Shown piece by piece: positions 7,718-44,633 of a DNA stretch of 64,000 nucleotides. The stretch is from contig NZ_PJCF01000002.1 of assembly GCF_002835935.1 (NCBI RefSeq), positions 186,001 to 250,000 on the forward strand, read 5' to 3'. The notes below the pieces were generated by a model that saw only the letters and a list, made by a program, of their open reading frames with translations, searched no databases and was not told the DNA's origin. The position numbers were made by a program, and so were the translations under genes. Source of the DNA: Paraglaciecola sp. MB-3u-78 (GTDB taxonomy: Bacteria; Pseudomonadota; Gammaproteobacteria; Enterobacterales; Alteromonadaceae). Within the stretch, counting starts at the first letter, position 1, and every line of letters starts with the position of its first letter.

Positions 7718-8005
7718 TCTATTTCCTCAATCTCAGTATAGTGCGTCAACTCTCCAATTTGGGTGTTTCCTTTCACTTTCAACAGGTTAATCATGCTAAT
7801 AAGCTACAAGCCTAAAAATTTAATTTAATATGCACTTTCGAGCTTTCATAATTAGCATTGTATTCCTATAATTTTTAGCCTGAAGCCAGTATTTATATTG
7901 TCTGCAGAAAGATACAGTGTTTTTTAAGGTTGATTTTTTGACCGTTTCAAGAAGATACAGATGCTTTCTAATAGACACTAAATAATTCTGCATGGAATGC
8001 TATCA

Positions 8006-10482: not shown

Positions 10483-12141
10483 ATGGCAGAGCAAATACTA
10501 CCCGGCGTATCCATTGAGGTACGACCAGAAGGTTTGATCATCCCTGGCCGAATAAGCATTGGCACAATTGGCATAATTGGCACAGCAAGTCGCGGTATAA
10601 TAGACACGCCTATAAGTGTAGGTAATCTCGCAGACGCTTTTGCCGTTTTCGGTGAATATGACAACTTCACCGATAATCAACCCAACGAACTCACCCTGAC
10701 TCGGGCACTTGAGCAAGCTTTTACTAATGCTGCACAAAATGTGATTGCAATCCGCATTGCTTCTGGAACAGTGGCTAGCGCAGACTCGCTATTAAGTTCC
10801 GCTAGCGGTGATTGTGTTACCTTAAGTGCGGACTCAGCTGGCACTTGGGGCAACGACATTTCAGTTAATGTCAGCGCCGCAGATGATAATAGTTTTATTA
10901 GTAACGAAGTGCATATTGGCCCAGCTCCTATCACCCTAGCCCATCCAGTGGTTGTAGAAAGCGCTAGGAATCGAATTAGTGTATTTCGTGATGCTACTCA
11001 ACAAACCAATCTATTGGTTGTTATTTACGATGGTGGCCCCCCGCCAGTCGCAGGCCAAGTAGAAGTTAACAGAGCAAGTGGAGTGCTCACATTTGTAGCA
11101 GGAGAAGAACCAGCAGCTGCAGATGTGGTAACCGCATCTTTCGTGGTTAGCGCCGCTAGCAGTGTAAAAGTCACGCTAAAACGTGATGGAGCAGAAGAAT
11201 CCTACAATGTAGCCAGTGGTAACGATTTAGTTGCTGATGTGAATGCAAATTCAAGCTTTGTTGTGGCCACCGCAGAAACTAATAGTGCTGAGTTGCCCAG
11301 CGAATTTGCTAGCGCAGACGAATTCCAAGTATTGACTGGAGGTGACAACGGCTCGATTGGCGCTAATTATATCGCTGGCCTAGATTTACTCAACAATAAG
11401 CCAGCTCATGTAATTATTGCTGCGGGACAAACCATTTCAACTATTGGTAGCGCCCTCACAGGCCATTGCAACGCGGCTTCTTCAGACCTAAACAAGCGGG
11501 AAAGAATTGGTGTTGTTGGCAGCGATGCAGGTGCATCTGTGGATGACGTAGCCGGACATCAGCTAAATAGTGACCGTATCATTTATGTGGCACCAGGCAT
11601 ACAAGCCACAGATCGCACTAACAGTGGTCCGGTAACCCTTTCTGGTGGCTATGCTGCTGCTGCAGTAGCAGGTTTGATATCCAGTTTTTCTTCTCACATA
11701 AGCCTTACCAACAAACAACTCACAGTCAACGGATTAGAGCAAAACTATACCAGTTCTCAACTTATTCAACTGATACAAAATCGAGTTTTGGCGTTGGAAA
11801 ACAAATTTGGTTTCCGAGTAGTCAAAGGGATCACCTCATCAACCAATACCGCATGGCACCAAATCACTACCCGGCGCACCGTCGATTTTGCCAAATTTGG
11901 GGTGCGTTCTGCTGCTAACTCTTACATAGGGCTTTTGAACAATGACAGAGTCCGTAGCGCCATGCGCTCAACCATTAACAGTTTCTTAACTGAGATGGTT
12001 GACGCCGAGCAGTTGATCAGTTACGAGCTTGAAGTCTCTGCTACCCGTGACGAAGAGATTAAAGGCATTGCACGGGTCACTTTGGTACTTAGGCCCACCT
12101 TTAGCATCGACTTTATCAAAGTCACAATGTTCCTTGAATAA
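10483..12141 (+). CDS. Contractile tail sheath protein
   Basis: A 552-residue sheath subunit. Sheath subunits polymerise around the tube and contract to drive it through the target envelope. The N-terminus LPGVSIEVRPEG is the typical sheath start (PGV-E). The middle has an inserted beta-rich region with AGTWGNDISVNVSA, a module of phage and eCIS sheaths. The C-terminus (from VVKGITSS to RPTFSIDFIKVTMFLE) is the conserved sheath core that makes the inter-subunit mesh. It follows a clear GGAGG ribosome site. Only one sheath gene is present, as in phages and R-pyocins, whereas Afp/PVC carry two or three. The gene end is followed by a 14-bp tandem repeat. Confidence 0.93.
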   Translation: MAEQILPGVSIEVRPEGLIIPGRISIGTIGIIGTASRGIIDTPISVGNLADAFAVFGEYDNFTDNQPNELTLTRALEQAFTNAAQNVIAIRIASGTVASADSLLSSASGDCVTLSADSAGTWGNDISVNVSAADDNSFISNEVHIGPAPITLAHPVVVESARNRISVFRDATQQTNLLVVIYDGGPPPVAGQVEVNRASGVLTFVAGEEPAAADVVTASFVVSAASSVKVTLKRDGAEESYNVASGNDLVADVNANSSFVVATAETNSAELPSEFASADEFQVLTGGDNGSIGANYIAGLDLLNNKPAHVIIAAGQTISTIGSALTGHCNAASSDLNKRERIGVVGSDAGASVDDVAGHQLNSDRIIYVAPGIQATDRTNSGPVTLSGGYAAAAVAGLISSFSSHISLTNKQLTVNGLEQNYTSSQLIQLIQNRVLALENKFGFRVVKGITSSTNTAWHQITTRRTVDFAKFGVRSAANSYIGLLNNDRVRSAMRSTINSFLTEMVDAEQLISYELEVSATRDEEIKGIARVTLVLRPTFSIDFIKVTMFLE

Positions 12142-12196: not shown

Positions 12197-12739
12197 ATGC
12201 CAATTTCTAATGTATTAACTGGCGCCCATGGCAGCTTAACCATTGCGCCTTTGGACACACTGCCGGGACAAGATGCCGAGCGTATTGCGGCAACGTACGA
12301 AATTCAACAAGCAGTGGGTCGAGTAACAGGCATTTGCCTGCGGATCAACACCGATTTGGAGGAGTTCCACGAGATAGGTTTTCGTCATGTTACTTCCTTG
12401 CACGAAGGTAATATCCATATAAGCGGCACGATTGACCGGGCCTACATTAACGGTGCCTTGCTTGCTTTATTAATGGGTCGAAAAGCGTTTAATGAAGAGG
12501 CAAAAAGTCAGCGCATATTTCAACCGGAATTTAACTTAACTATACAAATGGTAGATACCTCAGTCGCCGGACAGGCGGAGCTGGTGGTAAACGGCGTCAA
12601 ACTAGAAAACTGGAGCTACAGCATGCCAGAAGACGACTTCATCATGGAGCAGGTTAGCTTTAAAGCGAAAAGTATTGATATCCGTGACTCTGAAAGTTCA
12701 GTTCCTGCTGTACCTGAGTTTGTAGCCATAGACGCTTAA
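12197..12739 (+). CDS. Inner tube protein of the contractile system
   Basis: A 180-residue protein directly behind the sheath gene, the standard place and size for the tube subunit whose hexameric rings stack inside the sheath. The sequence is beta-rich. It includes GSLTIAPL near the start, and the C-terminal part LVVNGVKLENWSYSMPEDDF followed by EQVSFKAKSIDI is typical of phage tube proteins of the gp19/Mu-tube fold. An AGGAG ribosome site lies nine bases before the ATG, in the last unit of the upstream repeat. There is a single tube gene (Afp/PVC have two). Fold assigned by position and general pattern, not by a strict motif. Confidence 0.85.
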   Translation: MPISNVLTGAHGSLTIAPLDTLPGQDAERIAATYEIQQAVGRVTGICLRINTDLEEFHEIGFRHVTSLHEGNIHISGTIDRAYINGALLALLMGRKAFNEEAKSQRIFQPEFNLTIQMVDTSVAGQAELVVNGVKLENWSYSMPEDDFIMEQVSFKAKSIDIRDSESSVPAVPEFVAIDA

Positions 12740-12748
12740 GGAGATGTC

Positions 12749-13210
12749 ATGCATTTAACCAGTGACGACTTACTGGCTGGCAGCAGTTTACAGCACGATA
12801 TTGTGATCCCAGCTGATTTGATCAACACCTCAGATGAAGAAGCAAAAGTAACGCTTCAACCTCTAACGGTGCGGGATTTACAGTTGATTGCTAAAGCGGC
12901 TAATCAAGACGAAAACTTGTCAGCTTCGTTAATGATCCAGCGTGCACTACTTACGCCAAAAATGGAGCTAGAGCAAATAAGCAAACTACCTGCAGGTCTT
13001 GCAAAGTTTTTAATCGAGCAGATCAATCGGGTAAGTGGTATCAGTGCTTCACGCAATGCCTTAGAGGAAATGGTGCAAGCACCTTTGGCCAAAGCGTGTT
13101 TTATTTTGGCCAAAGAATTTGGCTGGACACCTGAAGAAGTCAGCGCCATGACCATAGGCCAAATTCTGATGTTTTTGCAGATGAGCAATCAAGCTGAGCA
13201 ATTGGCATGA
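12749..13210 (+). CDS. Tail assembly chaperone-like protein
   Basis: A 153-residue, mostly helical acidic protein in the slot between tube and hub genes where Mu- and P2-like phages keep the tail assembly chaperone (gpE/gp41 type). The beginning VTLQPLTVRDLQLIAKAA resembles the L-R-x-L-x-x-x-D-L pattern of these proteins. It would keep a tape-measure or tail protein soluble until assembly. AAGGAG lies six bases before the ATG. Its last codons overlap the next gene by ATGA, so the two are translationally coupled. A -1 frameshift fusion as in lambda G/GT was checked and does not fit, because a stop lies in the shifted frame at 13195. Confidence 0.6.
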   Translation: MHLTSDDLLAGSSLQHDIVIPADLINTSDEEAKVTLQPLTVRDLQLIAKAANQDENLSASLMIQRALLTPKMELEQISKLPAGLAKFLIEQINRVSGISASRNALEEMVQAPLAKACFILAKEFGWTPEEVSAMTIGQILMFLQMSNQAEQLA

Positions 13211-14499: not shown

Positions 14500-15054
14500 A
14501 TGAAACCCATGTTAGATGACTTAGCCCTGCCTCAAGTGCAAGTGGTGCGGAGCTATGACAAGCGGATGTTAGCCGAACATCGAGCGACTAACATGGATGG
14601 AAGTTTTTTACAGAACATGGGCAGAAAACCATCTTGTTTAATGTTGGCAGGCATTGCCTCAGGTGATGATGCACTTGGCTTTATTGAACAACTCGATGAC
14701 AAATTTAATGCTGGTGAGCCAGTCACCTTTATCACTGACATTATTGCTGATGCCGATATTGAACAGATGTTAATAGACGATTTTAAGCTAGAAGAACTAG
14801 CTGGTAAACCCAATCGTTTTGCCTATGTACTGACACTACGTGAGCACATTGAACCATTAGAACCAGAAGACGTTTCAGCACTTAACAGCGACATTTTAGA
14901 CGATGCAAACAGCCTACTTGAAGACTTAGTAGCCGGCTTAGATTTGGGCCTGTCATTTCCAACTGGCTTAGAGCAGTTTCTTGAGCCTCTTGGCAGCCTT
15001 CTCGGCCGACTACGTGCATTCAACCAAAGTGTTAATCAATCAAACATCCCATAG
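14500..15054 (+). CDS. Baseplate/hub-proximal protein, DNA-circularisation-N-like domain
   Basis: A 184-residue protein. Residues 1-125 share a pattern with the N-terminus of the 1222-residue protein two genes on: both start KPML-D-x-x-L/Q-x-Q-V, have a Gly-Arg followed by a beta strand, then E-P-x-x-F-x-(S/T)-D-I-I-x-x-x-D-I, and AGKPNRF-x-Y-x-x-T-L-R-E. This resembles the N-terminal domain of Mu gpN-type (DNA circularisation) proteins, which sit at the junction of tube and baseplate. The C-terminal 50 residues are helical and leucine-rich and differ from the paralogue. No signal peptide. The two genes are probably an old duplication, one of which gained extra domains. Confidence 0.65.
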   Translation: MKPMLDDLALPQVQVVRSYDKRMLAEHRATNMDGSFLQNMGRKPSCLMLAGIASGDDALGFIEQLDDKFNAGEPVTFITDIIADADIEQMLIDDFKLEELAGKPNRFAYVLTLREHIEPLEPEDVSALNSDILDDANSLLEDLVAGLDLGLSFPTGLEQFLEPLGSLLGRLRAFNQSVNQSNIP

Positions 15055-15072: not shown

Positions 15073-15492
15073 ATGGCAGATACAAACTTATTCGAGGAAT
15101 TAAAAGACGTATTACAGGATTTCAAAGACTTTTTGGATGAAAACATTAGTGTTATCCAACCTGCAATGGTGGCATTAAAAGCAATCATTCCGGATCAAAT
15201 TAATGACCTGTTGAGCAAGTTAATTGATTTAATTAACAAATTAAAGGCAGAAATTGAAAACCTCGATGTCAGCACTATTCCAGGGTTAGCCGAAGCGTCA
15301 GAATTTACCGAAAAAATTAAGGCGTTTCTAGAAGCAGCAAAAAATTTACTGCCTGAGAGCAGTGACGAAATCAATGATGTACTGTCGGTAGCTGACGTAG
15401 TAACAAGCTTGCCCTCACTTGATGAAATCAAGACTGAAATCATCGCATTGTTAGACGCCATAATTGGGCATTTGAATACGCTTAATTCTTAG
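15073..15492 (+). CDS. Small amphipathic helical protein of the CIS operon
   Basis: A 139-residue protein, almost wholly helical by eye, with heptad-like runs of Ile and Leu (DQINDLLSKLIDLINKLKAE). No Cys, no Trp, very acidic. It lies between the two paralogous hub-proximal proteins and has an AAGAGG ribosome site. I do not recognise a family. Its shape suits a short coiled-coil or membrane-active helix bundle, for instance a small tape-measure-like filler inside the tube or a chaperone for the large neighbour. Function unknown. Confidence 0.6.
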   Translation: MADTNLFEELKDVLQDFKDFLDENISVIQPAMVALKAIIPDQINDLLSKLIDLINKLKAEIENLDVSTIPGLAEASEFTEKIKAFLEAAKNLLPESSDEINDVLSVADVVTSLPSLDEIKTEIIALLDAIIGHLNTLNS

Positions 15493-15508: not shown

Positions 15509-18500
15509 ATGGAGCGTATCAAACCCATGCTTGGCGATATTGAGTTACAGCAAGTACAGCAACTCAACATAGATGCCGATCAGATGTTAACTGAGCATGA
15601 AATACCGGCTTTGGAAGGTAACTTCTATCAACCAGAAGGACGTCGCGGCACCTTAATCAAAGTGTCAGGGGTGTTGTCGGGCGTGAGTGTTGAAGAAGAT
15701 AATGTGGAAAATCCTGCAACCGGTTTAAAAGCGCTACGTGAAAAATTTAAAGCGGCTGAACCCTTATCTTTTGTCTCGGATATTATAAGTGCTACCGACA
15801 TCGATGAAGTCCTAATCGAAGATATGGAAGTCACCGAAATTGCCGGTAAACCTAACCGTTTTGAATACTCATTTACTTTACGTGAATTCACTGCTGCCCC
15901 CTCCAATCCGACTGAACCTCCAGAGATTATCCCTCCAGTAATCACAGAAACCGCAACCTTAATTGTTGAAGTAATAGTAATTGGCAACAGTGCTTTTGAT
16001 TTTAGCCGTGTGTCGGTCACAATAAGAGGCTCGCAAAGTGACGGTACAGATTTATTTCGTACCTTAACCAACCGCAATAACAATATTTGGACTGAAGAGG
16101 ATTTCCCACCAGGTCAATATACTTGTGATGCAGTGGTACTTGATACGCCACAAATGACAGGTAACGTGCCAGCCGAAGTACGTGCCGGAGAAACCACTAG
16201 CGTTAGCATAGAGTTACGTAGTGACGTCAAAATCGCACAAACCTTTATGATCCATTACCGCTTTGACAGCGCTTTTGTTGAACCTTGTATGCTCGATGTA
16301 CTTCAACAAGTCAGCGATTTTTCTCGGGCTAATTCTGATCTTAAATTGGTGATTTTAGGGCACACCGATCTGGCAGGTTCAACCAGTTACAATCAAGCGC
16401 TGTCAGAGCGCCGAGCACGCAGTGCATTTTCAGTACTTAGATTTGCCGACGACAACCAAGCAGCCATAGACGAGTGGGATCAAATCCGCCGCACTAGAGT
16501 GTCTGGCGCCAGCTTGGGAGATAGTTGGGGCGCACGTGAATATCAACAAATGTTGCAAGAGTTAGGATTTTACACCGGCACTATCAATGGTAACCATGAC
16601 TCGGCAACTGATAGTGCGGTAAGAGAATTTCAGCGTCAACACGGCTTAAATGACGATGGGGATGTAGGTGACTCAACTTGGCCTATGTTAATTCAAGAAT
16701 ATTTACATTTAAAAAACCTGTCTATAGCGGATAGTCAATTTTTACCTAACTGTTCTGGTGAATTACTAAAATGGCTAGGCTGCAGTGAACTCGATCCCGT
16801 AAAAGACATAACTTTCGCTTGGCGTCCTAACCGGCGTACTGAATTTCTTTTTATTAACGATGATTCGTTACCTAGCGACGTTGTGCAACCAGATACATTT
16901 AATAAACCCTCTGCTGGCGCCGTGAATAGTGCTTGGTGTTTAAATGATAGCGGCGTTTCTAGCCGTTGCTGCTTTGTTAAGCCTCATGTGGGTGCTGGCA
17001 AAGAGTCATGTGCTGCGACTCGCGACCCTTGGCCTCGAGAAGCCGCTGAGCCTGCGCCTGTTTTTGTGGTGCGCGGTTCAATTAAGTTTGAAGACGGCAC
17101 ACCTTTTGTTGGTCAATACACACTTATCGCCCCAGATGGAGAGTTTATGGATGGCGAAGTGCCTAAAACATCAGGCAGCTTACGCGCCGGCACTGGGATC
17201 AAGGCCACGACTAAAGCTGATGGCAGTTTTGAATACCCCGATGCAGATAAACACAAACGGCCAGGTATTTTCACATTAGAAGTCACAGGCGAAGTAGTTG
17301 TCCGGGGCACTGATCAACCTATTGAAGAGGCAAAAGGTCCCTTTGCCTGTAAAAGACTGGCCTCAGACCAAGATAGTTTTAATGTGGTTATTGTACCTGC
17401 GCTACTTGCCAATATTACACCGAGCATTACAGCTCCGCCAACCATAGTAGTTAAACGCCCGCACACCAGTCCGCAACGCCAACCCCTAGTGCTGAGTGTT
17501 AATCAAACATTTACTGGGACAGGGATATTTACTCGTTCACCTGATGACAAAGTATTGTTTTTTACCGCAGCAACGGGCGGCACAGCCTTGCAATTTGATG
17601 GTAACGACAACCTATTTACTGATGCCCAGTTACTAGCAGGAGTAACACTTTTTAGCGAAGGTGGCCCAAATCCCAGTGCTATATTAAGCGACATCACTTT
17701 GAGCCTACAAATAGTCGTATCTGGCCAAAATGGTCGTTCCACATCTGAGCAAATGACCTCAGTGTTGCTCACTTTGGACATAAGCAGCAGTCAGACAAAT
17801 GCGGCTGATGAGGTATTAATATTAAGTGACACCGACAAAATAGCGCCGGGTAGAATGTTACAAGTTCAAAATTCCTCAGCACAGGCGACTCGTGCCATGC
17901 TTATCTTGCGCAGAGCATTGCCCGAAACCTTCACAGGCTCTTTATCTGTGCAAGCCATCAGTAACAAAGTGCAATTATTTAGTGCCGCAGAAGAAGTCGC
18001 CACTGCCACACAAACACCTTTGAATTTGCCGCAATTAGTGGCTAATCAAGCTATATCTCAAGTAGTAGGTACACCCGCCACCCCCAATCATGTGGGCACT
18101 ATTTTTTGGGCAGAGGCCCGTGCGCCTAGTGATAACAGCCTAGATACAGGCTTTCAATTGGGTATAGATGGGCTGGAACAAGACGGCGATCGTGTGATGA
18201 TCACCGCAGCTGAGGTAATGATCAGCAATAATGTTGCACCATTTAACACCTCACAAACCAGAGTACAAATAGAAGGCGTATTAAATCGCCTTCGCAGCAG
18301 CTTCGACATTAGTGATTTATTTGGCACTCAAAACAATTCATTATTTAGAGCAAGAGTGACCATTGCTGGCATTACAGCAAACAGTATACAAGTGACACTC
18401 AATAGCGAGACGCAAGCAGGTGATACTCTTGAAAGCCTGTCAATAACACTAAATCGCACCTCGGGGAATGTATTTGTTTCGGCAACACCTATTATGGCGA

Positions 18501-19177
18501 TCCCAGATGCGATCCCTCGGGCTGACATTACTTTTGCAGCCCCTAAGTCAATAGAAATAATAAGGTGCCGGGCACAGGGCAAACTAAAACTTTCGGTCGA
18601 TGGGCCACACTCAGATGCAGGTGCAGTTGCAGTCAAAGTGCGCGGCAGAGTATTTCGATTTTGTACCATCACCATTCAAGGCGCAGCTCCCACCATAGCT
18701 GCAGATATGACAACAGCCAACAGAGTGGTGGCCCAGTGCGGCATTGAATTCAGAATTGTTTCCTCAACCATTGTTGATGATCCAGCACTGCTGGATATTG
18801 CGCAAACCGACTGCCCGTTGACCATAGGTGGCAATGTTAGCCGAGATCCTGAAGAAATTGCTTTGTTTGCGTTAGGACGGGACACCTGCCCCCACAATTT
18901 CCTTGTTTATTTTGTTCGTTCTAACAGCATGGGGTTGTTTGGTTGTTCCGCTTTTCCTGTGGGTCAGCCTGGCGTTTCAGTGGCTGACTCTGCCAGTCAA
19001 TACACTTTTGGCCACGAAATTTGTCATGTTTTACACCTGCCCCACGATGCCAGAACAAACAATTTAATGACAGGTGCAGGCACCACAACATTACCTTCGA
19101 CTCCAAACACTGTGCGCCTTGAGCCCGACCAATGTCAGACCATGGATGACGGCGGTTTTCTGGAAATTTTGGAATGA
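15509..19177 (+). CDS. Giant hub-proximal protein with OmpA-like, peptidoglycan-binding and metzincin protease domains
   Basis: 1222 residues. Order seen: 1-130, gpN-like baseplate domain (paralogue of the 184-residue protein); 140-235, beta-sandwich; 245-335, OmpA-like domain with ILGHTDLAGS and LSERRARSA; 341-400, inserted PG_binding_1 module (YQQMLQELGFYTG, FQRQHGLNDDGDVG); 441 on, the end of the OmpA-like fold (NRRTEFLFIND); 521-620, a carboxypeptidase-regulatory-like module; then beta-rich sequence; about 1040-1222, a zinc protease. The protease has HEICHVLHLPHD with His1169, Glu1170, His1173 and His1179 in HExxHxxxxxH spacing, and NLMTG as a Met-turn. Position 1176, usually Gly in metzincins, is His. 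No signal peptide. It is probably an effector carried on the particle that anchors to the cell wall and cleaves a protein. Structural and toxin roles in one chain are inference. Confidence 0.85.
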   Translation: MERIKPMLGDIELQQVQQLNIDADQMLTEHEIPALEGNFYQPEGRRGTLIKVSGVLSGVSVEEDNVENPATGLKALREKFKAAEPLSFVSDIISATDIDEVLIEDMEVTEIAGKPNRFEYSFTLREFTAAPSNPTEPPEIIPPVITETATLIVEVIVIGNSAFDFSRVSVTIRGSQSDGTDLFRTLTNRNNNIWTEEDFPPGQYTCDAVVLDTPQMTGNVPAEVRAGETTSVSIELRSDVKIAQTFMIHYRFDSAFVEPCMLDVLQQVSDFSRANSDLKLVILGHTDLAGSTSYNQALSERRARSAFSVLRFADDNQAAIDEWDQIRRTRVSGASLGDSWGAREYQQMLQELGFYTGTINGNHDSATDSAVREFQRQHGLNDDGDVGDSTWPMLIQEYLHLKNLSIADSQFLPNCSGELLKWLGCSELDPVKDITFAWRPNRRTEFLFINDDSLPSDVVQPDTFNKPSAGAVNSAWCLNDSGVSSRCCFVKPHVGAGKESCAATRDPWPREAAEPAPVFVVRGSIKFEDGTPFVGQYTLIAPDGEFMDGEVPKTSGSLRAGTGIKATTKADGSFEYPDADKHKRPGIFTLEVTGEVVVRGTDQPIEEAKGPFACKRLASDQDSFNVVIVPALLANITPSITAPPTIVVKRPHTSPQRQPLVLSVNQTFTGTGIFTRSPDDKVLFFTAATGGTALQFDGNDNLFTDAQLLAGVTLFSEGGPNPSAILSDITLSLQIVVSGQNGRSTSEQMTSVLLTLDISSSQTNAADEVLILSDTDKIAPGRMLQVQNSSAQATRAMLILRRALPETFTGSLSVQAISNKVQLFSAAEEVATATQTPLNLPQLVANQAISQVVGTPATPNHVGTIFWAEARAPSDNSLDTGFQLGIDGLEQDGDRVMITAAEVMISNNVAPFNTSQTRVQIEGVLNRLRSSFDISDLFGTQNNSLFRARVTIAGITANSIQVTLNSETQAGDTLESLSITLNRTSGNVFVSATPIMAIPDAIPRADITFAAPKSIEIIRCRAQGKLKLSVDGPHSDAGAVAVKVRGRVFRFCTITIQGAAPTIAADMTTANRVVAQCGIEFRIVSSTIVDDPALLDIAQTDCPLTIGGNVSRDPEEIALFALGRDTCPHNFLVYFVRSNSMGLFGCSAFPVGQPGVSVADSASQYTFGHEICHVLHLPHDARTNNLMTGAGTTTLPSTPNTVRLEPDQCQTMDDGGFLEILE

Positions 19178-19181
19178 TGTT

Positions 19182-19661
19182 ATGAGTATCAAAGAAATAA
19201 AAAGGCTGATTAGACTCATGTCCGATGATGAATTTCTCGGTTTGCCTAAAATAATAGACATGCAAAACAAGGCTGTGCCGTTATTACAAAAAATACTCAT
19301 GGACTCACAACAAGCTCACTTTATTCATCAACGTGCACTTATTTGTTTAGGCGAAATTGGCGCTGATGCAGGATTCGACACGGCTTCAAGTTATCTTAGC
19401 AGTCCAGATCCGGTATTTCGCATAGCAGCGGCTAGAGCCATAGTCAAAATCCATCCAGATAAAGCCGCGGATCTATTAATAGATAATCTAGATGATGAAG
19501 ATATCTCTGCATGCAATGTTAAAATTCAATGTTTGGCGGCCTCCGGTCAAACAAAAGCTAAACCCGTACTAAATAAACTTAAAAGGAATAGTGAGGATCC
19601 CTTTATACGCAAATCAGTATCCCTTGCATTAAAGCATTTAAGTCAAGAGGGGCAAACATGA
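19182..19661 (+). CDS. HEAT-repeat protein
   Basis: A 159-residue helical-repeat protein. Paired helices such as RALICLGEIGADAGFDTASS and FRIAAARAIVKIHPDKAADL are HEAT/PBS-lyase-type repeats, which bind other proteins. The ATG at 19182, a few bases after the stop of the giant protease-bearing protein, is chosen because the longer frame from 19074 would overlap that gene by about 100 bases. Its own end overlaps the hub gene by four bases (ATGA). A HEAT protein right behind a protease-bearing component could be its loading chaperone or an immunity protein; the sequence does not decide this. Confidence 0.8.
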   Translation: MSIKEIKRLIRLMSDDEFLGLPKIIDMQNKAVPLLQKILMDSQQAHFIHQRALICLGEIGADAGFDTASSYLSSPDPVFRIAAARAIVKIHPDKAADLLIDNLDDEDISACNVKIQCLAASGQTKAKPVLNKLKRNSEDPFIRKSVSLALKHLSQEGQT

Positions 19662-20698
19662 GTTTGACGCCCGCTTATAAATTCACTGTTGGTGGACAAT
19701 TAGTCGACACCACCGATGAGCCGCAAGCCAGCACTTTGGTAGACTTATTAGTGAGGTTGGATATGCATGTTGCCAGCAATGAATTTAAGTTAATTCTTGG
19801 CAATATAGGGCACTTCACGCCTGAGCGGGAAGATGAAGGACTCATCGAATTAGGTTACGCCGACCAGGAAGGAGAATTAATACAAGTTGCAAAGGGCAAA
19901 GTAGATGTTGTAGAACAAGGGTCTACTCTGGATCACATTCATGGTTACTCTGACGCCGCCATTTTGTTGCGCGCCTTCACTGACCAAACATTTGAAAGTA
20001 AAACTGCCGGAGATATTGTCAAGGATCTAGCCTCCCAAGCAGGCGTAGATACAGCCAATTTTGAATCAGGCATAGATTTCCCAGCTTACGTAATAGATGG
20101 ACAAAAGAGTTTCTATCAGCATATGCAAGATCTCGCAGTACTGTGCGGATTCGATTTGTATTTTAATAGTGACAATCAACTTGTATTCCAACAATTTTCT
20201 GGTGGAAATCAAGTGCATGTATTCAACCACGCCAGTCACATCATTGAGCTAAAAGTGGACTTTTCAGCACCGCTAAGTGCCAAAGTAGAAGCTTGGGGTG
20301 AAAGTGGTAGCAACAATGGCAATGAGTCATGGGCGTGGCTAACCAAGGATTTTTCTGGTCTAAGGGGTAATGCAGGCGGAATTGCTAACAACGGAGTTCC
20401 TAATAACAGCTCTTCTCTACGGCTCGAGAGATCCGCTTTGCGCACTGGTGAGGCGGCGCAAAAAGCAGCTGATGCAGCCTTGACTGAATTAGGTCGACAA
20501 ACTATGCGCGGTCATTTGCTGAGTGTCGGCCGTCCACAAGTTAAACTAGGCGATACGATTAGGTTAAGCGGGTTACCCGAAGACCCATTAAATCAAATTT
20601 ATCAGGTGCGAGGGGTAACTCACCGTATTACCAAACTGACTGGTTTTACTACCCAAGTGATGTTTCGTTCCATCGACAGCAATTTGGCGGGGTTTTGA
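19658..20698 (+). CDS. Baseplate hub protein (phage late control D/gp27-like)
   Basis: A 346-residue protein of the gpD family: trimer at the centre of the baseplate that joins tube and spike. Features: beta-rich N-terminus FTVGGQLVD, then the region DLASQAGVDTANFE and QKSFYQHMQDLAVLCGFDLY, which is the conserved 'S-x-(W/Y)-x-x-(L/M)-x-x-L-A-x-x-x-G-F-x-x-Y' block of these hubs, and near the C-terminus VRGVTHRITKLTGFTTQVMF. Overlaps the HEAT gene by ATGA and is followed two bases later by the spike gene, the usual gpD-gpV order. Cytoplasmic assembly, no signal peptide. Confidence 0.88.
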   Translation: MSLTPAYKFTVGGQLVDTTDEPQASTLVDLLVRLDMHVASNEFKLILGNIGHFTPEREDEGLIELGYADQEGELIQVAKGKVDVVEQGSTLDHIHGYSDAAILLRAFTDQTFESKTAGDIVKDLASQAGVDTANFESGIDFPAYVIDGQKSFYQHMQDLAVLCGFDLYFNSDNQLVFQQFSGGNQVHVFNHASHIIELKVDFSAPLSAKVEAWGESGSNNGNESWAWLTKDFSGLRGNAGGIANNGVPNNSSSLRLERSALRTGEAAQKAADAALTELGRQTMRGHLLSVGRPQVKLGDTIRLSGLPEDPLNQIYQVRGVTHRITKLTGFTTQVMFRSIDSNLAGF

Positions 20699-20699
20699 T

Positions 20700-21506
20700 A
20701 TGACCAACATAATCAATACCATTCAAGCCATAGTGCGCGACGAAATCCGTGGCATGCGGGCCACAGAACTAGGCCTAGTAAAAAAAGTCTACCCTCACAG
20801 TTCAGACTCAGACACGGATAATTATGCTTGTGATGTGGAAATTAAAAACAGCCAATTATTATTAAAACGTGTGCCTATCTCCACTGACCGTATCGGTACA
20901 GTGGCGATTCCCAATGTGAATGATTTAGTGCTGGTTGCCTTTGTCAAAAACGACGTTAATCAACCTATAGTCATTGGTCGTTTATACAACGACCAAGATC
21001 GCCCACCACTAAATAATAATGATGAGGTAATTTTCAGATTGCCGCTGGATGATGCAGACGACAAAACCCTCAAAGCCGCAATACGGAATTTACAGCAACA
21101 AACCTCTGAGCCAAGAGAAATAATCATCGAGATGGATCCCAAAATTACGGTACGCATCACAGACGGCACAATTAAAGCCACAGCAGGCAAATCAGAAATG
21201 ACCATTGACCAATCCAACACCAGCGGCGGTACAGTGACAATCCTCACTGGCAGCACCAAAATGACCATGAATCAAGACGGTGACATTCAAGTTGAAGCCG
21301 CAGGTTCAATTGCTTTAAAAGCCAACAGAGACTTTAGTGTTGACGCGATGAATATATCAATGAAGAGCCAGCTAGATACCACTATTGAAGCGGGCACCCA
21401 ACTAAATGCAAAAGGCGGTGTAACTGCAAAACTCGAAGCTGGCGCAAATACCACAGTACAAGGCGGTGTAGTGTCGGTAAAAGGCACAACACTGTTTTCA
21501 CCTTAA
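20700..21506 (+). CDS. Baseplate assembly protein V / VgrG-like spike
   Basis: A 268-residue spike protein. Residues about 20-100 form the gp5-type OB fold (DRIGTVAIPNVNDLVLVAFV, then VIGRLYNDQDRPP). After a linker, residues from about 150 are a series of short beta repeats rich in Thr, Gly and Ala, the triple-stranded beta-helix needle that pierces the target. Usually such proteins are trimeric and end in a flat tip capped by PAAR, and the PAAR-like gene follows directly. Starts one base after the hub gene stop. No toxin domain is fused to its C-terminus. Confidence 0.92.
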   Translation: MTNIINTIQAIVRDEIRGMRATELGLVKKVYPHSSDSDTDNYACDVEIKNSQLLLKRVPISTDRIGTVAIPNVNDLVLVAFVKNDVNQPIVIGRLYNDQDRPPLNNNDEVIFRLPLDDADDKTLKAAIRNLQQQTSEPREIIIEMDPKITVRITDGTIKATAGKSEMTIDQSNTSGGTVTILTGSTKMTMNQDGDIQVEAAGSIALKANRDFSVDAMNISMKSQLDTTIEAGTQLNAKGGVTAKLEAGANTTVQGGVVSVKGTTLFSP

Positions 21507-21531: not shown

Positions 21532-21900
21532 TTGTATGCAGGACAACCAATTAACAATGAGAACAAAGTGCCCGGCCCTCCCGTTTCAATAGGCGCTATG
21601 GTGTTGCTTAGTCCAGGTGCAGCAGGAGCCCCTGACAGCGGCACCATAATAGCGGTGTTGCCGCCTTTTATTACAGCTAATGGCATGCCATTAGCTACAT
21701 CGGGCTCGATGTGTTTGATGATTAATTCGGTGACTGGCGTGCCTTACACTATCCCTATTGGCCCATTTGCCAGCACGGGAGTGTCTGTAGGGGGTAAACC
21801 CTTAGTACGCTTGGGAGATAACATCCCGTCACCACCAGGTATTTTGACTATTTTGGGGCCACCAGCAGCACCCTTTATTCTCGACCAGTGGCCTCCATAG
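21532..21900 (+). CDS. PAAR-like spike-tip protein
   Basis: A 122-residue Gly/Pro-rich protein following the spike gene. Contains GMPLATSGSMCLMINSVTG and VSVGGKPLVRLGD, spaced like the repeated beta loops of PAAR and PAAR-like (DUF4280/DUF4150-like) tips that sharpen the spike. The classical three-His-one-Cys zinc site is not evident; the frame contains one Cys and no His, so a metal-free or differently held tip is likely. The only in-frame early start is TTG at 21532, with GGAG just two to three bases away, an awkward spacing; translation may be weak, as fits one copy per particle. The end is covered by a 13-bp tandem repeat. Confidence 0.75.
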   Translation: MYAGQPINNENKVPGPPVSIGAMVLLSPGAAGAPDSGTIIAVLPPFITANGMPLATSGSMCLMINSVTGVPYTIPIGPFASTGVSVGGKPLVRLGDNIPSPPGILTILGPPAAPFILDQWPP

Positions 21901-21955: not shown

Positions 21956-22426
21956 TTGGCATTAGTGGAACAAAGATTTGGTACTGATTTGCAGCTATTA
22001 GGCAATTTAGAGAACCAACATGACCGCGATATAGGCCGTGACTTACGCACAGGCCCGCGACAAGAAACCGGACAAATTGATCTGCAAACCCTAACGGGCG
22101 TCGCTTCTTTTCAACAAGCATTGCTGCTGAGGTTTCTTACCCGTGCTGGCGAATTAAGTCAGCTAGGTCACCCTCACTACGGTTCTCGTTTACATGAACT
22201 TATTGGCGAGCTTAATTCCGCCAGCAATCGTAATCGCGCAAAACTTTTTGTGCTGCAGTCCTTAGCAGATGAACCAAGAATTGAAAAAGTCATTGGCATA
22301 TCTGTCAGCAAAAATGTGAGTGATCCTACTCGAGTAGATATCGATTTAACGTTAAAAGCACTGACCTTAGATACCCCTTTTAATTTGGTCTTTCCCTTTT
22401 TCCTTGAACCGGGAGTAACCCAATGA
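21956..22426 (+). CDS. Baseplate wedge protein gp25/GpW family
   Basis: A 156-residue wedge component, needed to start sheath assembly. The body contains TGVASFQQALLLRFLTRAGE and HPHYGSRLHELIGE, matching the gp25 fold in which a conserved Glu-Pro or Arg-rich block precedes 'G-S-x-L'. The start is TTG at 21956 with a perfect AAGGAG seven bases upstream; no ATG is available. Its last bases overlap the gpJ gene by ATGA. The order gp25-gpJ-gpI is standard for contractile systems. Confidence 0.88.
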   Translation: MALVEQRFGTDLQLLGNLENQHDRDIGRDLRTGPRQETGQIDLQTLTGVASFQQALLLRFLTRAGELSQLGHPHYGSRLHELIGELNSASNRNRAKLFVLQSLADEPRIEKVIGISVSKNVSDPTRVDIDLTLKALTLDTPFNLVFPFFLEPGVTQ

Positions 22427-24036
22427 ATCCGGACACGCTTAACTTGATAGAGCGGCCATACCAAGAAGTGGTGGATGATATTCTGACTGCTATGGTTGGC
22501 GGGGTCGTGAATGAACCGATATTTTTTGACAAAAAATCTGAGCGTTATCCTCTATCACAACCAGCAAGTGATGTGCGCGGTATCACTGGCAAGATAGAGC
22601 AAGAAGTGGATGGCGAACTAAAAATTTTTTCCCATAGTTTCCAAAAAAACATCGATTTTATTTACGAACCCGATGAAAACGTCATCGTCTGGCAAGAAGG
22701 TGCTAAGGCTCCTGTCGATGAGTCGGTTTTCTTTGCGGATTATTTTATTCCAGATGCTAACTCACCTCTGACTGACATCAACGTAGGCAGTGTTACTCGT
22801 ACATTGTCTGAGGCAATTGGCAGAGAAATCGCCACGGTTTACCAACAAATTAATCTAGCTTACTTAAATGGTTTTATTGATACCGCCACCGGAGTGTCAC
22901 TGGATCAAGTCGTTGCCATTCTAAATGTGAAGCGTAAAACCGCCGATTTCGCAGTGGGTTTAGTGACCTTTTTTCGCGATCCTCAAAGCAGCGGCAATAT
23001 CACAATCAGTTCAGGCACCTTATTGTCCACCACCAAAGGTGATACCACCTTTGAAACCACACAACTGAGAACATTACAAACAGGACAAGCGCGTATAGAT
23101 GTGCCTGTTAGAGCCACTAACGACTTTCGTAAGGAAGCGGGTCAAGTTGATTCGGCCAGCATTACGCAAGTGGCACAAACCATTGAAGGTATCGCGCGCA
23201 TCACCAACTTTGAAGCCACTTTTCTAGCCGCCCAAGATGAAACCGACGCAGAATTAAGGTTGCGAGCTAAGGCCGCTTTACGAGCATTGGGTAAGGCAAC
23301 CCATGCTGCACTAGCACAAGTTATTTTTGCGGGGCGCGGCAATTTATTAGAAATATGGGATCCCAATGGACCTGAGTTAAAACGCTCTGAACCGGGCACA
23401 ACCGTGTTGTTAATAGAAGCTGAACCTGAACGGTTTCCCAGCTTACAAACAGAAGTGCATAACACCCGGGCTGCAGGCATAGATGTCAGTTTAGTGGCTC
23501 GTTATGTGTTCTTTACACCCAAAATAGTCGCACAAATATCAGCAGGCATTACCAATCAAGGTAAAGAAAAGATAAAGCAGCAAATCATTGCCAACTTGCA
23601 ACTTTATGTTGACGAGTTGTCTAGCGGCGATCCTGCTAAAGGCGCCGCTCTATTGGATGCGATAAAAGCCACTGATGATGTCAAAAGCGCCAATATAGTA
23701 GATGTCATATCCTGGGTAAGTAATGTCACTCAACCAGGCACTTCAAAGTTAGTCGACCGGATAGTGGATTTGGTTGCCATCACTCCCTCTTCGGATGTTC
23801 AGGCTTTAAAGCAGGGTATTGAGAGTATTGTGAGTGAAGACGGGCCGATTGTTCCAGGCACTCAACGCATACCAGATCGCAGTCGCTTGCAATCAACCCT
23901 TGAACCACGCAACGCAACAGACGGCGAAATACTAGGCGGAGAATTTGAAATTGTTGCCGTCATAGATGGTGAAAATTGGTGGGTCAGCTTGGACATAGAT
24001 GCTGCGGATATTCTGTTACAGGAAAACGGTAGTTAA
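22423..24036 (+). CDS. Baseplate wedge protein J (gp6-like)
   Basis: A 537-residue gpJ-family protein, the main wedge subunit that forms the baseplate ring and links fibres to the hub. The central part has SVTRTLSEAIGREIATVYQQ and FIDTATGVSLDQVVAIL, the standard Baseplate_J region, followed by RKTADFAVGLVTFFRD and the beta domain with ISSGTLLSTTKGDTTFETT. The C-terminal half adds a domain with AALLDAIKATDDVKSANIVD, also known from gpJ. Starts within the gp25 gene end (ATGA), and the next gene starts two bases after its stop. Confidence 0.92.
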   Translation: MNPDTLNLIERPYQEVVDDILTAMVGGVVNEPIFFDKKSERYPLSQPASDVRGITGKIEQEVDGELKIFSHSFQKNIDFIYEPDENVIVWQEGAKAPVDESVFFADYFIPDANSPLTDINVGSVTRTLSEAIGREIATVYQQINLAYLNGFIDTATGVSLDQVVAILNVKRKTADFAVGLVTFFRDPQSSGNITISSGTLLSTTKGDTTFETTQLRTLQTGQARIDVPVRATNDFRKEAGQVDSASITQVAQTIEGIARITNFEATFLAAQDETDAELRLRAKAALRALGKATHAALAQVIFAGRGNLLEIWDPNGPELKRSEPGTTVLLIEAEPERFPSLQTEVHNTRAAGIDVSLVARYVFFTPKIVAQISAGITNQGKEKIKQQIIANLQLYVDELSSGDPAKGAALLDAIKATDDVKSANIVDVISWVSNVTQPGTSKLVDRIVDLVAITPSSDVQALKQGIESIVSEDGPIVPGTQRIPDRSRLQSTLEPRNATDGEILGGEFEIVAVIDGENWWVSLDIDAADILLQENGS

Positions 24037-24038
24037 AC

Positions 24039-27000
24039 ATGCCCACAAAAACCGAACGTATCCTTAGCTACCTACCTAGCACTTTTAAAGTATCGGGCAC
24101 ACGCTCGGCGCTAAAAACTGTGGTAGATACTTTTGGTAGAGAATTACTTCACGGGGAGAACAGTCTAGCCGCATTAATGCGAGCCCATTGGGTTGACCAT
24201 GCTGATAGTGGAGCCGATAAAATTGACGATTTGGCTAGAATTGCTGCGTTATTCGGTCTGGCGCCTCGGCCTCAACAAACAGTTGAAGAATTTAGAACCC
24301 ACTTAAAACAATATATAAAAACCGCCTTAGAAGGCACAGTGACAGTACAAGGTATTTTGCGCACTACTGCAAATAATCTGGGTCTGACAATTGCTGACAG
24401 CTATGACGATATAGACACTTGGTGGACACGGCAATCAGACAGCTTAGTCACCGAGCTGCACTGTGGGAATGATGCAGCTTATGGATTGTTTGGTGAAGAG
24501 TCCCTTGTTGCCCATGGACATGCTGCAACCGCAGCGCGTATTGTCGGTCTGGTTAATCTTGATAATCCATTAGATTTAAGCAGTTCAGGTACCTTTGCCA
24601 GCAGAACTTTAAACATTAAAGTAAATGCGAAAGCCAAAGTCAGTGTTGATTTGTTAGCAACTGCAGCCAACCCTAGCGCTGTAACCAATGCAGAAATAGT
24701 AGACGCCATCAATCAGGCATTTAATGCACCATTGGCTGCTATCCAAAACCACAAACTAGTGCTAACTGCCCTAACTAGCGGAGCCACAAGTAGCATATTG
24801 TTAGAAGAGCAGGTCAATGATGCGGCGCCTATTGTGCTTGGTTTTGCTGCCCATAGCGCTAAAGGTAAGGCTGCAACTGCCGCAATTTACACTGGCAGTG
24901 TCGACTTATCGGGCAACCATGATCTGAGCCAGACGCGCTTCCTCAGAGTTAAACTGAATACAGACAAACTCGCAGAAATTGACTGTGCTGGGCCTACTCC
25001 TGAAACCACTACAATCGAGCAAATTAGTGATGCCATCAATAGCGCCTTAGGGAGTTCAATTGCCAGTCATGATGATAAATTTCTGACTCTAAAATCGTCA
25101 TTAATAGGTGCTGGCAGTAGCATCACTTTTTTATCTGCCGCTGCACAAGATGCAAAAAATGCTCTCTTAGGCTCGCCGCCCAGCGCAGTAATGGGTCATG
25201 ATAAATTAGCGGCTACCTTGATAGGCAAAAGTGATCTTAGTAAAGGAGTAGATCTAACCGAATACTATATTCTGCGGATACGGGTTAATAATAGCAACGC
25301 GGTGAACGTGGATTGTCGCGGGCTTGCTCCTGAATCCTCTCAGTTACCTGAAATTACCAATGTGATTAACGACACTCTTGGTAAAAAAGTGGCCAGTCAT
25401 AATGGACGAAACTTAATTTTATCGTCTACCACATCAGGTATTGCCAGCAAACTGACTATCGAAGACCCGGCTCCTAATAACGGTGGGCCTAATAACGCAG
25501 CACAAGTGTTATTAGGGATAGTCTCAAGGAGCGCAAAAGGCAGCGACGCAACGGCAGCCAAAATAACCAGTCTGACTGATCTGTCTGGTGGGATAAATTT
25601 ATATGCTAGTCATCAACTTAGAATAACGCTGGACCAATCGCAGCCAGTCGACATCGATCTTAAACGTACAATTAAGGACCTAAAAAGCGTCTCAATCAAT
25701 GATATCACTAACAGCATAAATCATGTTTTAGGAGCCAATATTGCTAGTCACAATGGTTCGTTATTGACCTTACTAAGCCCTAAAAAAGGCAGCAACAGTC
25801 AACTTATTATCAGTCCGATCACAAATACTCACACCACTCGATTTGTTAGTCAGGCACCAATTAAAGGTGAAGCGAGTGAACGCATTTTTGGTTTTAACTC
25901 GGCCTTAGTACAAGGGCAAGACGCAATACCTGCCCGAGTCATTGGCACCACTAACTTAAGCCGTGGCGTTGATTTGCGAACTGCGCAATATCTGACCCTT
26001 AAAATGAATGACAACCTAGCAGTCACCATCAACTGCGCAGGGCCTAGACCAAGGGCCACCTTGTTATCTGAAGTCATTGAAAACATCAATAATCAATTAG
26101 GCAGCACTATCGCCAGACAAGAAGATGGAAAATTAATGCTGATTGCCGCCACTACTGACAGTGGAGCTATTGAGGCGAGTCGCATCGAATTTATTCCTCC
26201 AGAGGTGACCGATGCAAGCAGCCTAATACTGGATGTTGAAACAGGCCTGATACGTGGCCTAGATGCCCTTAGTGTCAACTTAGAAGGCACTAAAGACCTT
26301 GCAAACGGGGTTGATCTTAGTAGCAAATCCCATCTCAAGTTAATTATTGATGACACCGGTCCCTTAGACATTTCTTGTGTAGGGCCCATTCCTGCAAGTA
26401 CCACTTTGGCACAAATTACTATTGCGATAAATGTGGCTTTTGGCAAAAATGTTGCCAATCACGACGGTAAACATCTTATTTTAAGTTCCCAAAAAGCTGG
26501 GGCTGATAGCCGGATCGAAATTCTGCCTGCAGATGCCACTGAAATAATACTTGGCATTCACTCTCCCAGACTTTATGTAGGTAGGGAGGCAAGTCCGGCT
26601 ACTATCACAGGTAGAGTTGATTTCACGGGTATTTCACTTGATTTATCCGAGCAGCATTTCCTTGAAATAGCGCTGGACGGCAATGCCCCCTTAATCATTG
26701 ACTGTGCCAAAAATGCGATAGATGTTACCCAAGTATCTTTAGCTGAAATAGTAGACGAGATTAATAGCAGCGCAGGTCAAGGTATTGCGTCTGAAAAAGC
26801 AGGGGTATTAGTAGTCACCTCACCTACCCTTGGTTTGAGCAGCCGTATTAATCTCATTGCCCATACTGGCTCTGACGGGAAAAGTTTATTGTTTGGGGAT
26901 ATTGCCAGTGTATTTGAGGGTAGCAGCGCAACCTCTGCTGTATTAGAAAGCAACATCCCCTTAGCTGCTGGGGTAAATTTGAGTGAACGGAATCACATTA

Positions 27001-28964: not shown

Positions 28965-28996
28965 TATGTGTAAACTCAACAACAGGAGTCACTCTA

Positions 28997-29908: not shown

Positions 29909-29962
29909 AGATTTTGACTCAAGTGGAATGGCAAACGGCAGCGAACGAAAAGGAGCTACCCT

Positions 29963-44608: not shown

Positions 44609-44633
44609 TAGATTGGTCACCCTGAACTTTTTC

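Follow-up and report, generated by a model that had tools for sequence, protein, structure and literature searches.

A 64,000-nucleotide stretch of the Paraglaciecola sp. MB-3u-78 genome (contig NZ_PJCF01000002.1, positions 186,001 to 250,000 of the forward strand; hereafter the window) contains the genes of a predicted contractile injection system (CIS), and among them one for a protein of 1222 residues that joins a structural domain to a predicted zinc protease. The chain starts with a tube-initiator-like domain, continues through an OmpA-like domain carrying an inserted peptidoglycan-binding module and a conserved middle region, and ends in a metzincin. It is followed by the gene for a HEAT-repeat protein, which accompanies this type of protease in every distinct locus recovered. 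Features of the two genes are given below in window coordinates, with their evidence in brackets; numbers beginning with L and G denote the loci and genomes compared.

15509 to 19177, plus strand: 1222-residue fusion of a tube-initiator-like domain, an OmpA-like domain with inserted peptidoglycan-binding module, a middle region and a C-terminal metzincin (open reading frame; Pfam; homologues L080/L058 and L089)
15509 to 15886, plus strand: gpN/DUF6046/Dit-like N-terminal domain, residues ~1-126 (DUF6046, E 1.2e-6; paralogous to the gene at 14500-15054; alignment)
16229 to 16858, plus strand: OmpA-like peptidoglycan-binding domain, residues ~241-450, split by an insertion (OmpA, E 2e-6; motif positions)
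16535 to 16684, plus strand: PG_binding_1 module inserted in the OmpA domain, residues 343-392 (PF01471, E 2.6e-15)
17075 to 18628, plus strand: middle region, residues 523-1040, conserved in L058 (alignment with L058)
18629 to 19174, plus strand: metzincin protease domain, residues 1041-1222 (alignment; AlphaFold; Foldseek; profile search against the PDB)
19013 to 19045, plus strand: zinc-binding motif HEICHVLHLPH, residues 1169-1179 (His, Glu, His and His invariant in 31 of 31 sequences)
19067 to 19069, plus strand: Met1187 of the Met-turn, NLMTG (Met in 31 of 31)
19182 to 19661, plus strand: HEAT-repeat protein of 159 residues (HEAT_2, E 1.3e-13; partner in 35 of 35 distinct loci)

The open reading frame (ORF) of the fusion spans exactly 15509-19177, from ATG to TGA. 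The original prediction, made from the letters alone, had described a structural domain, wall-binding modules and a C-terminal protease on one chain, and all of these are confirmed, coordinates included. An assembly or frame artefact was considered as the source of the fusion and rejected, as the same fusion is carried independently by L080/L058. The first domain had been called gpN-like, an assignment that holds weakly: DUF6046 matches residues 56-124 at 29.0 bits, just above its cut-off of 27.4, DNA_circ_N matches the homologue in L080 at E 0.0057, below the Pfam cut-off, and no match was found among PDB sequences. The product of the gene at 14500-15054 shares 41% identity over 124 residues with the N-terminal ~126 residues of the large protein. 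OmpA is recognized by Pfam at residues 263-310 (28.5 bits, cut-off 27.2), and the NCBIfam models YiaD (1e-11) and Pal (2.3e-10) match the same domain below their own cut-offs. PG_binding_1, at residues 343-392, reaches 56.8 bits against a cut-off of 23 and is flanked by the motifs HTD (from residue 285) and RPNRRTE (from 439), which we take to be the start and the usual last-strand motif of an OmpA domain. Because RPNRRTE comes after the module, the latter is an insertion within OmpA, just as had been proposed. The link between the first domain and OmpA contains a run of 19 hydrophobic-leaning residues (~140-158, mean hydropathy 1.95), and the N-terminus has no signal-peptide-like start as judged by hydropathy, which is not a signal-peptide predictor. 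AlphaFold applied to residues 523-1222 with an alignment of 2 sequences returned a mean predicted local distance difference test score (pLDDT) of 29.8, so no fold is claimed for the middle region.

The protease domain was identified through its relatives. His1169, Glu1170, His1173, His1179 and Met1187, all numbered exactly in the original prediction, mark positions that do not vary across the 31 aligned sequences, of which the window is one, and the conservation check proposed for the three histidines and the glutamate thus came out in its favor. This alignment comprises the window and 30 of the 31 scanned loci; L059 was left out because its contig covers the protease incompletely. The first His-Glu belonged to one of the two seed patterns used to scan for homologues, so that these two residues are partly selected for, while the other three are not. 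The window motif has His in place of the metzincin Gly, which had been read as a hint of a divergent family. That hint is weak, because the position tolerates change: it holds Gly in 24 of the 31 sequences, Asp in 3, His in 2 (the window and L058 only), Ser in 1 and Asn in 1, leaving 7 of 31 without Gly. With the 31-row alignment, AlphaFold modelled the domain at a pLDDT of 86.7 and a predicted TM-score (pTM) of 0.85, and the elements follow one another as beta-alpha-beta-alpha-beta-beta-beta-alpha(HExxH)-alpha-beta, which is the metzincin order. Foldseek found 63 matches in the PDB at E ≤0.001, and all 50 of those listed are metzincins (best E 9.7e-8, query TM-scores 0.52-0.64, identity 10-16%). 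The listed matches, whose class names are presumed in part, belong to the ADAM/ADAMTS, snake-venom, fragilysin or pappalysin groups and are led by ADAMTS-1, venom metalloproteases, ADAM33 and fragilysin. The fold check set out in the original prediction therefore gave the expected answer. A profile search of PDB sequences pointed the same way, with putative metalloprotease II (4on1) at 5.3e-6, followed by fragilysin (4e-4) and trimerelysin II, the best stretches being mostly short and centred on the zinc motif. Taken alone, the window domain lies below every Pfam and NCBIfam cut-off (best Reprolysin_5, 15.1 bits against a cut-off of 27, E 0.027) and has no significant match in the PDB as a single sequence, unlike some relatives, which reach the cut-offs of Reprolysin_3, Reprolysin_4, Reprolysin_5 or Matrixin. 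On the homologues, the PDB profile search and the model, the C-terminal domain is a predicted metzincin, well beyond a chance HExxH. Such a chance occurrence was considered and rejected, the ligands and Met-turn being common to the 31 aligned sequences and the model being that of a metzincin.

The neighboring HEAT gene, which the original prediction had not mentioned, is a constant companion of the protease. Its start codon in the window lies 4 bases past the protease stop, and a HEAT gene on the same strand is present in 35 of 35 distinct metzincin loci, immediately downstream in 34 of them. A HEAT model built from 30 partner rows found exactly one match per locus in 33 of 33 cases (31 loci, Spirosoma and the window), including L032, L033, L042 and L059, which are not in the model; the contig of L059 begins inside the protease. 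Two later loci from the phylum of Streptomyces, likewise outside the model, both matched it. Measured from the end of the protease, the HEAT frame closes after 434-684 bases, which leaves space for little more than the HEAT gene itself; in L057 the figure is 797. Of the 32 rows of the HEAT alignment, which include two in a wrong frame, 29 matched HEAT_2 in a Pfam scan. Furthermore, pairwise identities of proteases and of HEAT proteins are correlated (r 0.77, 28 pairs), a value reached in none of 2000 permutations; this comparison used 28 of 31 rows, without L032 (no HEAT row) and without L033 and L042 (wrong-frame HEAT rows). Since the protease is made in the cytosol with a constant neighbor, that neighbor could well protect its maker, and the gene pairing suggests that the HEAT protein guards the producer against the protease. 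Imm-HEAT is a described type of immunity protein for other toxins in the polymorphic toxin survey (PMC3482391), which makes the inhibitor reading slightly easier and the metzincin-HEAT pair slightly less new. As a separate observation, the HEAT partners of eight loci (L035, L038, L039, L040, L041, L043, L050 and L032; seven from Actinomycetota and one from a Chloroflexi metagenome-assembled genome, MAG) end in C-terminal tails with 2-6 copies of MPGE, often as GLMPGE, which is possibly a decoy or binding repeat.

Relatives of the pair are widely scattered and thinly spread. A class-wide search with the single sequence found the metzincin in 2 of 369 class genomes, the window's and G222, and a plasmid search added a Spirosoma protein annotated as a matrixin family metalloprotease. 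An alignment of three sequences (window, G222 and Spirosoma relatives) was used to scan genome contigs and yielded the 31 loci, which spread over about eight phyla; judging by genus, we take these to be Bacteroidota, Acidobacteriota, Pseudomonadota, Actinomycetota, Cyanobacteriota, Nitrospirota, Chloroflexota and Gemmatimonadota. L027 duplicates part of L055 and the two were counted once. A sample of the Streptomyces phylum, searched with the alignment as query at E 1e-20, held the protease in 3 of 326 genomes, the centre included; two of these supplied new loci and the third was already known. By these sequence searches (2 of 369 class genomes and 3 of 326 phylum genomes), the metzincin-HEAT pair appears to be sparse. 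Ten stand-alone relatives were scanned for domains, and six carry a module 5' of the protease: DUF346 in two, where the repeats are lectin-like, LGFP in two, FG-GAP in one and DUF6623 in one. Among the other four, three showed only the peptidase and one (L046) showed neither at E 0.01, except for two weak unrelated matches. By hydropathy, 30 of 31 relatives lack a clear signal peptide; the exception, L044, has one hydrophobic stretch and a start that is probably over-long. On the Spirosoma plasmid (L028:11416-13593), an Hsp20 gene comes next after those for the protease and the HEAT protein, and three Cys-rich repeats can be seen by eye 5' of the protease domain.

Phages and plasmids were also searched. 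The 1222-residue protein had no tblastn match in 50,697 phage records at E 1e-5, and scans of viral contigs with the metzincin, the trunk (the chain 5' of the metzincin) and the spike found no relative, while a scan with the sheath found one distant relative. Against phage records, the sheath gave 36 matches, all below 60% identity and none covering 80% of the query; the 8 listed cover 47-53%. The spike had 35 matches in plasmid records, none reaching 60% identity, and VgrG predominates among the 20 listed. A phage origin with a near relative was thus rejected, the phage-record and viral-contig searches having given no close match.

The fusion and HEAT genes lie in a same-strand run that reads sheath, tube, chaperone-like gene, the ORF starting at 13207, bare initiator-like gene, 139-residue ORF, 1222-residue ORF, HEAT, hub, spike, PAAR, gp25, wedge and three more ORFs. 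The remaining features of the locus are:

7997 to 9013, plus strand: sigma-54-type activator with AAA+ and HTH_8 (Pfam Sigma54_activat, E 5.7e-64), a possible regulator upstream of the CIS locus
9444 to 10436, plus strand: conserved 330-residue protein 5' of the sheath (39% identity in L072, 36% in L081)
10483 to 12141, plus strand: tail sheath (Phage_sheath_1C, 5.2e-11; phrog_279, 2.5e-53)
12197 to 12739, plus strand: tail tube (Phage_tube_2, 0.0028, below cut-off; position; conserved in L073, L081 and L082)
12749 to 13210, plus strand: tail-assembly-chaperone-like protein (Phage_TAC_7, 0.0078, weak; conserved in L073, L080, L081 and L082)
from 13207, plus strand: ORF between the chaperone-like gene and the bare initiator copy
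14500 to 15054, plus strand: bare copy of the tube-initiator-like domain, 184 residues (paralogy with the N-terminus of the 1222-residue protein)
15073 to 15492, plus strand: 139-residue ORF conserved in sister loci (59% identity to L080; 56% to L089 over 72 residues)
19658 to 20698, plus strand: baseplate hub, gpD-like (phrog_52, 1.5e-11; phrog_196, 3.9e-7; 57% in L058)
20700 to 21506, plus strand: spike, gpV/VgrG OB-fold (Phage_base_V, 4.4e-6; 66% in L058)
21532 to 21900, plus strand: PAAR-like tip (PAAR_motif, 0.0036, below cut-off; 70% over 83 residues in L058)
21956 to 22426, plus strand: gp25-like sheath initiator (phrog_975, 6.6e-17)
22423 to 24036, plus strand: baseplate wedge, gp47/gpJ-like (phrog_6, 9.3e-31)

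Sheath, tube, hub, spike, gp25 and wedge genes are grouped without head genes (Pfam, PHROG), and a Pfam scan of 29 of the 68 window ORFs that reach 100 residues found no capsid, portal or terminase. On this gene content the locus is a CIS in the general sense, predicted to build a stand-alone particle without a head. Markers of the extracellular contractile injection systems (eCIS; Afp/PVC/MAC), which we presume to be the Afp15-type AAA+ ATPase, the Pvc16-type cap, a LysM baseplate protein and DUF4157, had no Pfam match at E 0.1 in the 17 ORFs of 9444-33073, a search that a divergent cap or ATPase could escape. The locus ends (24039-33073) with three ORFs of 1641, 303 and 1036 residues without a Pfam or PHROG match worth naming, which may be fibres, length control or more effectors. 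Downstream lie an Hsp20 gene (34188-34649), such as also adjoins the pair on the Spirosoma plasmid, and, at 43014-44620, a modification enzyme of the MbnB/TglH/ChrH type adjoining a DUF2063/NGO1945 protein, a possible locus for a ribosomally synthesized and post-translationally modified peptide (RiPP).

The original prediction had called for a search for other CIS loci with the same architecture, and one was found, in L080 and L058, two contigs of a single Chromatiales MAG (G455) whose parts of the fusion are 43% and 45% identical to the window protein. L080 holds a chaperone-like gene, a gene with the conserved tail of the window's 414-residue ORF, the bare initiator, the 139-residue gene and residues 1-549 of the armed protein, that is, the initiator copy bearing additional domains, up to the contig end. 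L058 holds the C-terminal 719 residues of the armed protein with the motif HEIGHVLHLPH, then HEAT, hub, spike and PAAR. The last 28 residues encoded on the L080 contig are the first 28 on the L058 contig, and a third contig of the same MAG, L072, carries the 330-residue gene and the sheath (60% identity). Within the limits of the contigs of a MAG, the whole window architecture appears conserved in G455. The gene in the place of the 414-residue ORF (L080:512-1918) encodes 468 residues, is proline-rich and matches that ORF in its last 24 residues only; by sequence its product is a fast-evolving protein with a conserved tail. Beside the sister locus, L072 also shows a repeat array that in translation resembles CRISPR (clustered regularly interspaced short palindromic repeats; L072:212-541) and an ORF with a serine-protease-like GDSG (L072:994-2004), both noted by eye.

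A third genome of the same class, G370, offers a variation. Its contig L089 encodes an armed trunk of 688 residues (42% identity over 661 columns) that stops 5' of the metzincin, and the trunk is followed by a separate 606-residue subtilase (PF00082, 1.9e-45), in which the motifs typical of the family around Asp, His and Ser are present, then by hub, spike, PAAR, gp25 and wedge. A prodomain match on the subtilase (PF22148, E 0.0031) lies below cut-off. Searching G370 with the whole 1222-residue protein gave trunk and OmpA matches and no metzincin, and the L089 contig has no HEAT match. The protease position would thus be an exchangeable slot, filled by metzincin and HEAT in two genomes and by a separate subtilase without HEAT in a third. 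Unless the slot serves proteolysis itself, it is hard to see why unrelated proteases should fill it in two particles, although a releasing or processing role might also account for them, and the earlier suggestion of a built-in effector gains indirect support from this sequence comparison. The trunk was found in the window genome only among 398 phylum genomes, again in that genome among 394 order genomes, which added one match limited to OmpA, and in G370 only among 12 genomes of its order. As far as these samples reach, the armed particle is rare, the full trunk being present in three genomes and in no further one from the phylum and order samples. Related particles from the same genus (L073, L074) and from a class-mate (L082) have one initiator-like gene only in the stretches fetched, which gave no OmpA, HEAT or metzincin match. 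With a single unarmed initiator gene in these relatives, the armed copy looks like a duplicate that gained domains. In the same-genus locus L073 (G016), an 892-residue protein encoded shortly 5' of the sheath (L073:9891-12569) has a zinc-dependent phospholipase C domain (8.6e-9) and is another candidate effector.

Taken together, the most plausible explanation seems to be that the 1222-residue protein is an armed tube initiator whose exchangeable slot holds a protease effector, carried by the particle and restrained by the HEAT protein until delivery, for which we would give a probability of about one half. The N-terminal domain would assemble where the tail tube meets the baseplate hub, the OmpA and peptidoglycan-binding domains would make contact with the envelope or act as a spacer in the baseplate, and the C-terminal metzincin would ride with the needle as a protease effector. 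In the producer cytosol, the HEAT protein would bind the protease and keep it inactive or harmless until the particle is built and gone. Contraction would then carry the ring and its proteases into the target envelope or cytosol, where proteins would be cleaved. In one sister particle the slot would be filled by the separate subtilase, with its weak prodomain match and no HEAT gene. Phage Mu gp43 (gpN, the DNA circularization protein) is described as a tube initiator that forms a hexamer at the junction of tube and hub and bears a LysM module in its second domain (PMC11915804). A copy number of six is inferred from Mu gp43; delivery with the needle, an inhibitory role for HEAT and proteins as targets are further inferences. 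If the window protein sits as gp43 does, about six proteases would lie beside the hub and travel along with the tube when the sheath contracts. Its OmpA and peptidoglycan-binding domains might bind the wall of the target, bind the wall of the producer, or fill the baseplate as the LysM does in Mu. More tentatively, and at somewhat less than even odds, the tube-baseplate ring protein could be a dock for swappable protease warheads, and the metzincin-HEAT pair an undescribed toxin-antidote module of about eight phyla, often on lectin-like or repeat carriers without signal peptides, that was captured by the particle.

Several observations weigh against this account. The protease module is not CIS-specific: in a tblastn comparison, which would detect close relatives only, the 13 CIS proteins of the window hit 1 of 32 relative loci, namely L058. 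No sheath match was found in 15 of 31 relative genomes, the 16 with a match being read against a tool control of 3 in 14 as the sole background, and sheath and protease lie on one contig in none of these 16, all of which were re-searched. Contig fragmentation can hide such a linkage, as the particle of L058 is itself split over contigs in this way. The second instance of the fusion is a set of contigs from one MAG, and the subtilase arrangement occurs in one genome only. The placement in the ring is drawn from gene order and DUF6046/DNA_circ_N, gpN-like matches that are weak or just above cut-off and have no counterpart in the PDB, and the hydrophobic stretch ahead of OmpA (residues ~140-158) may cross a membrane instead of forming a beta strand. 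In L057, a 97-residue ORF separates the protease and HEAT genes, and shared descent would by itself produce part of the correlation between protease and HEAT distances. Protease activity, its target and inhibition by HEAT are predicted.

Other explanations accommodate much of the same evidence. The protease could be a penetration tool fixed on the baseplate that digests surface or periplasmic proteins of the target for needle passage, like the phage tail enzymes that act on capsule or peptidoglycan. Being covalently joined to OmpA and peptidoglycan-binding domains, it would stay in the envelope, and 6 of the 10 stand-alone relatives have other repeat or binding-type modules (DUF346, LGFP, FG-GAP, DUF6623). 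We consider this unlikely, although worth serious attention, as the constant and presumably cytosolic HEAT partner suggests that the protease is dangerous in the producer cytosol, a point still compatible with an envelope target. An assembly, maturation or releasing enzyme that acts on particle proteins or payload, with HEAT as an assembly chaperone or scaffold, is improbable. Its gene does lie within the structural operon, 4 bases from the HEAT gene, HEAT repeats are general binding scaffolds, and the polymorphic toxin survey lists proteases (PVC-metallopeptidase, Peptidase S8) beside toxin domains and interprets the majority of PVC-metallopeptidases as peptidases with a releasing function (PMC3482391). 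The distant particles with the same core (L073, L074, L082) show no trunk arms, HEAT or metzincin in the fetched stretches, however, relatives of the metzincin-HEAT pair occur away from CIS genes, and an unrelated subtilase in a sister particle would be odd for a specific maturation step.

A narrower alternative keeps the armed initiator and its effector and changes only the role of HEAT, which would be a loading or folding chaperone of the protease and no inhibitor or immunity protein. Constant adjacency suits a chaperone as well as an inhibitor; the sister subtilase, with its weak prodomain match (PF22148) and without a HEAT gene, suits inhibition better, albeit in one case, and HEAT repeats are described as an immunity type for other toxins (PMC3482391). 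The chaperone is thus a somewhat unlikely but respectable contender. Lastly, the metzincin domain could be catalytically dead and act as a binding domain, a notion prompted by the His for Gly and the Cys before the second His in the window motif. This is very improbable given that none of the 31 sequences departs from the three zinc ligands, the Glu or the Met and that other members lack the Gly too.

Most known CIS effectors are either cargo of the tube or extend a spike, tube or PAAR protein, and carriers of the specialized (evolved) effectors of CIS and of type VI secretion systems (T6SS) are VgrG, PAAR or Hcp. The window protein shares with specialized effectors an enzyme domain that is covalently part of a particle component, and differs in its carrier, a tube-initiator-like protein with OmpA and peptidoglycan-binding domains, and in its enzyme, a metzincin with a HEAT partner. 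If the proposal is correct, an enzyme on the tube-initiator ring that is swapped in a relative would be a new payload attachment site, and a ring-borne enzyme would permit a direct test of what enters the target with the needle. The constant metzincin-HEAT pair would serve as a marker for finding such proteases in many phyla. To our knowledge, a HEAT protein restraining a metzincin would be new. The open-access literature (subscription papers were not covered) gave no description of a tube-initiator protein with a protease, nor of a metzincin-HEAT pair; effectors fused to structural parts and HEAT immunity proteins for other toxins are already known.

Among the closest precedents, a PVC-metallopeptidase domain might sit at the C-terminus of a T6SS baseplate or tail polypeptide in Burkholderia (Zhang et al. 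2012, PMC3482391), where the given signature, HExxHxxQ-E, is that of a different zincin. HExxH proteins with DUF4157 (PVC-metallopeptidase) are likewise tied to contractile particles as eCIS effectors (PMC8213781, PMC11297309), although DUF4157 is a separate domain on cargo or nearby genes, and Pfam found none in the window operon. The adamalysins/reprolysins (M12B), matrixins (M10) and fragilysin share fold and motif with the window domain, which differs in lying below the family cut-offs and in having no signal-peptide-like start, no recognized prodomain and an adjoining HEAT gene. Imm-HEAT of polymorphic toxin systems is similarly a HEAT-repeat protein whose gene accompanies that of a toxin and which is interpreted as conferring immunity (PMC3482391), and the adjacency typical of such toxin-immunity pairs is found here in full, with the partner gene in 35 of 35 distinct loci and immediately adjacent in 34. 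The partner toxins given for Imm-HEAT in the relevant parts of PMC3482391 are Tox-REase-7 and Ntox34, with no metzincin or other protease named there, and its versions are said not to be widely used across toxin types. A further parallel is Mu gp43, whose gene also adjoins those of hub and spike and which has a possibly related, weakly matched N-terminal domain and a module of the peptidoglycan-binding type (PMC11915804). Where gp43 has LysM, the window protein has OmpA and PG_binding_1, and it further differs in its duplication into a bare (14500-15054) and an armed copy, with a protease on the latter.

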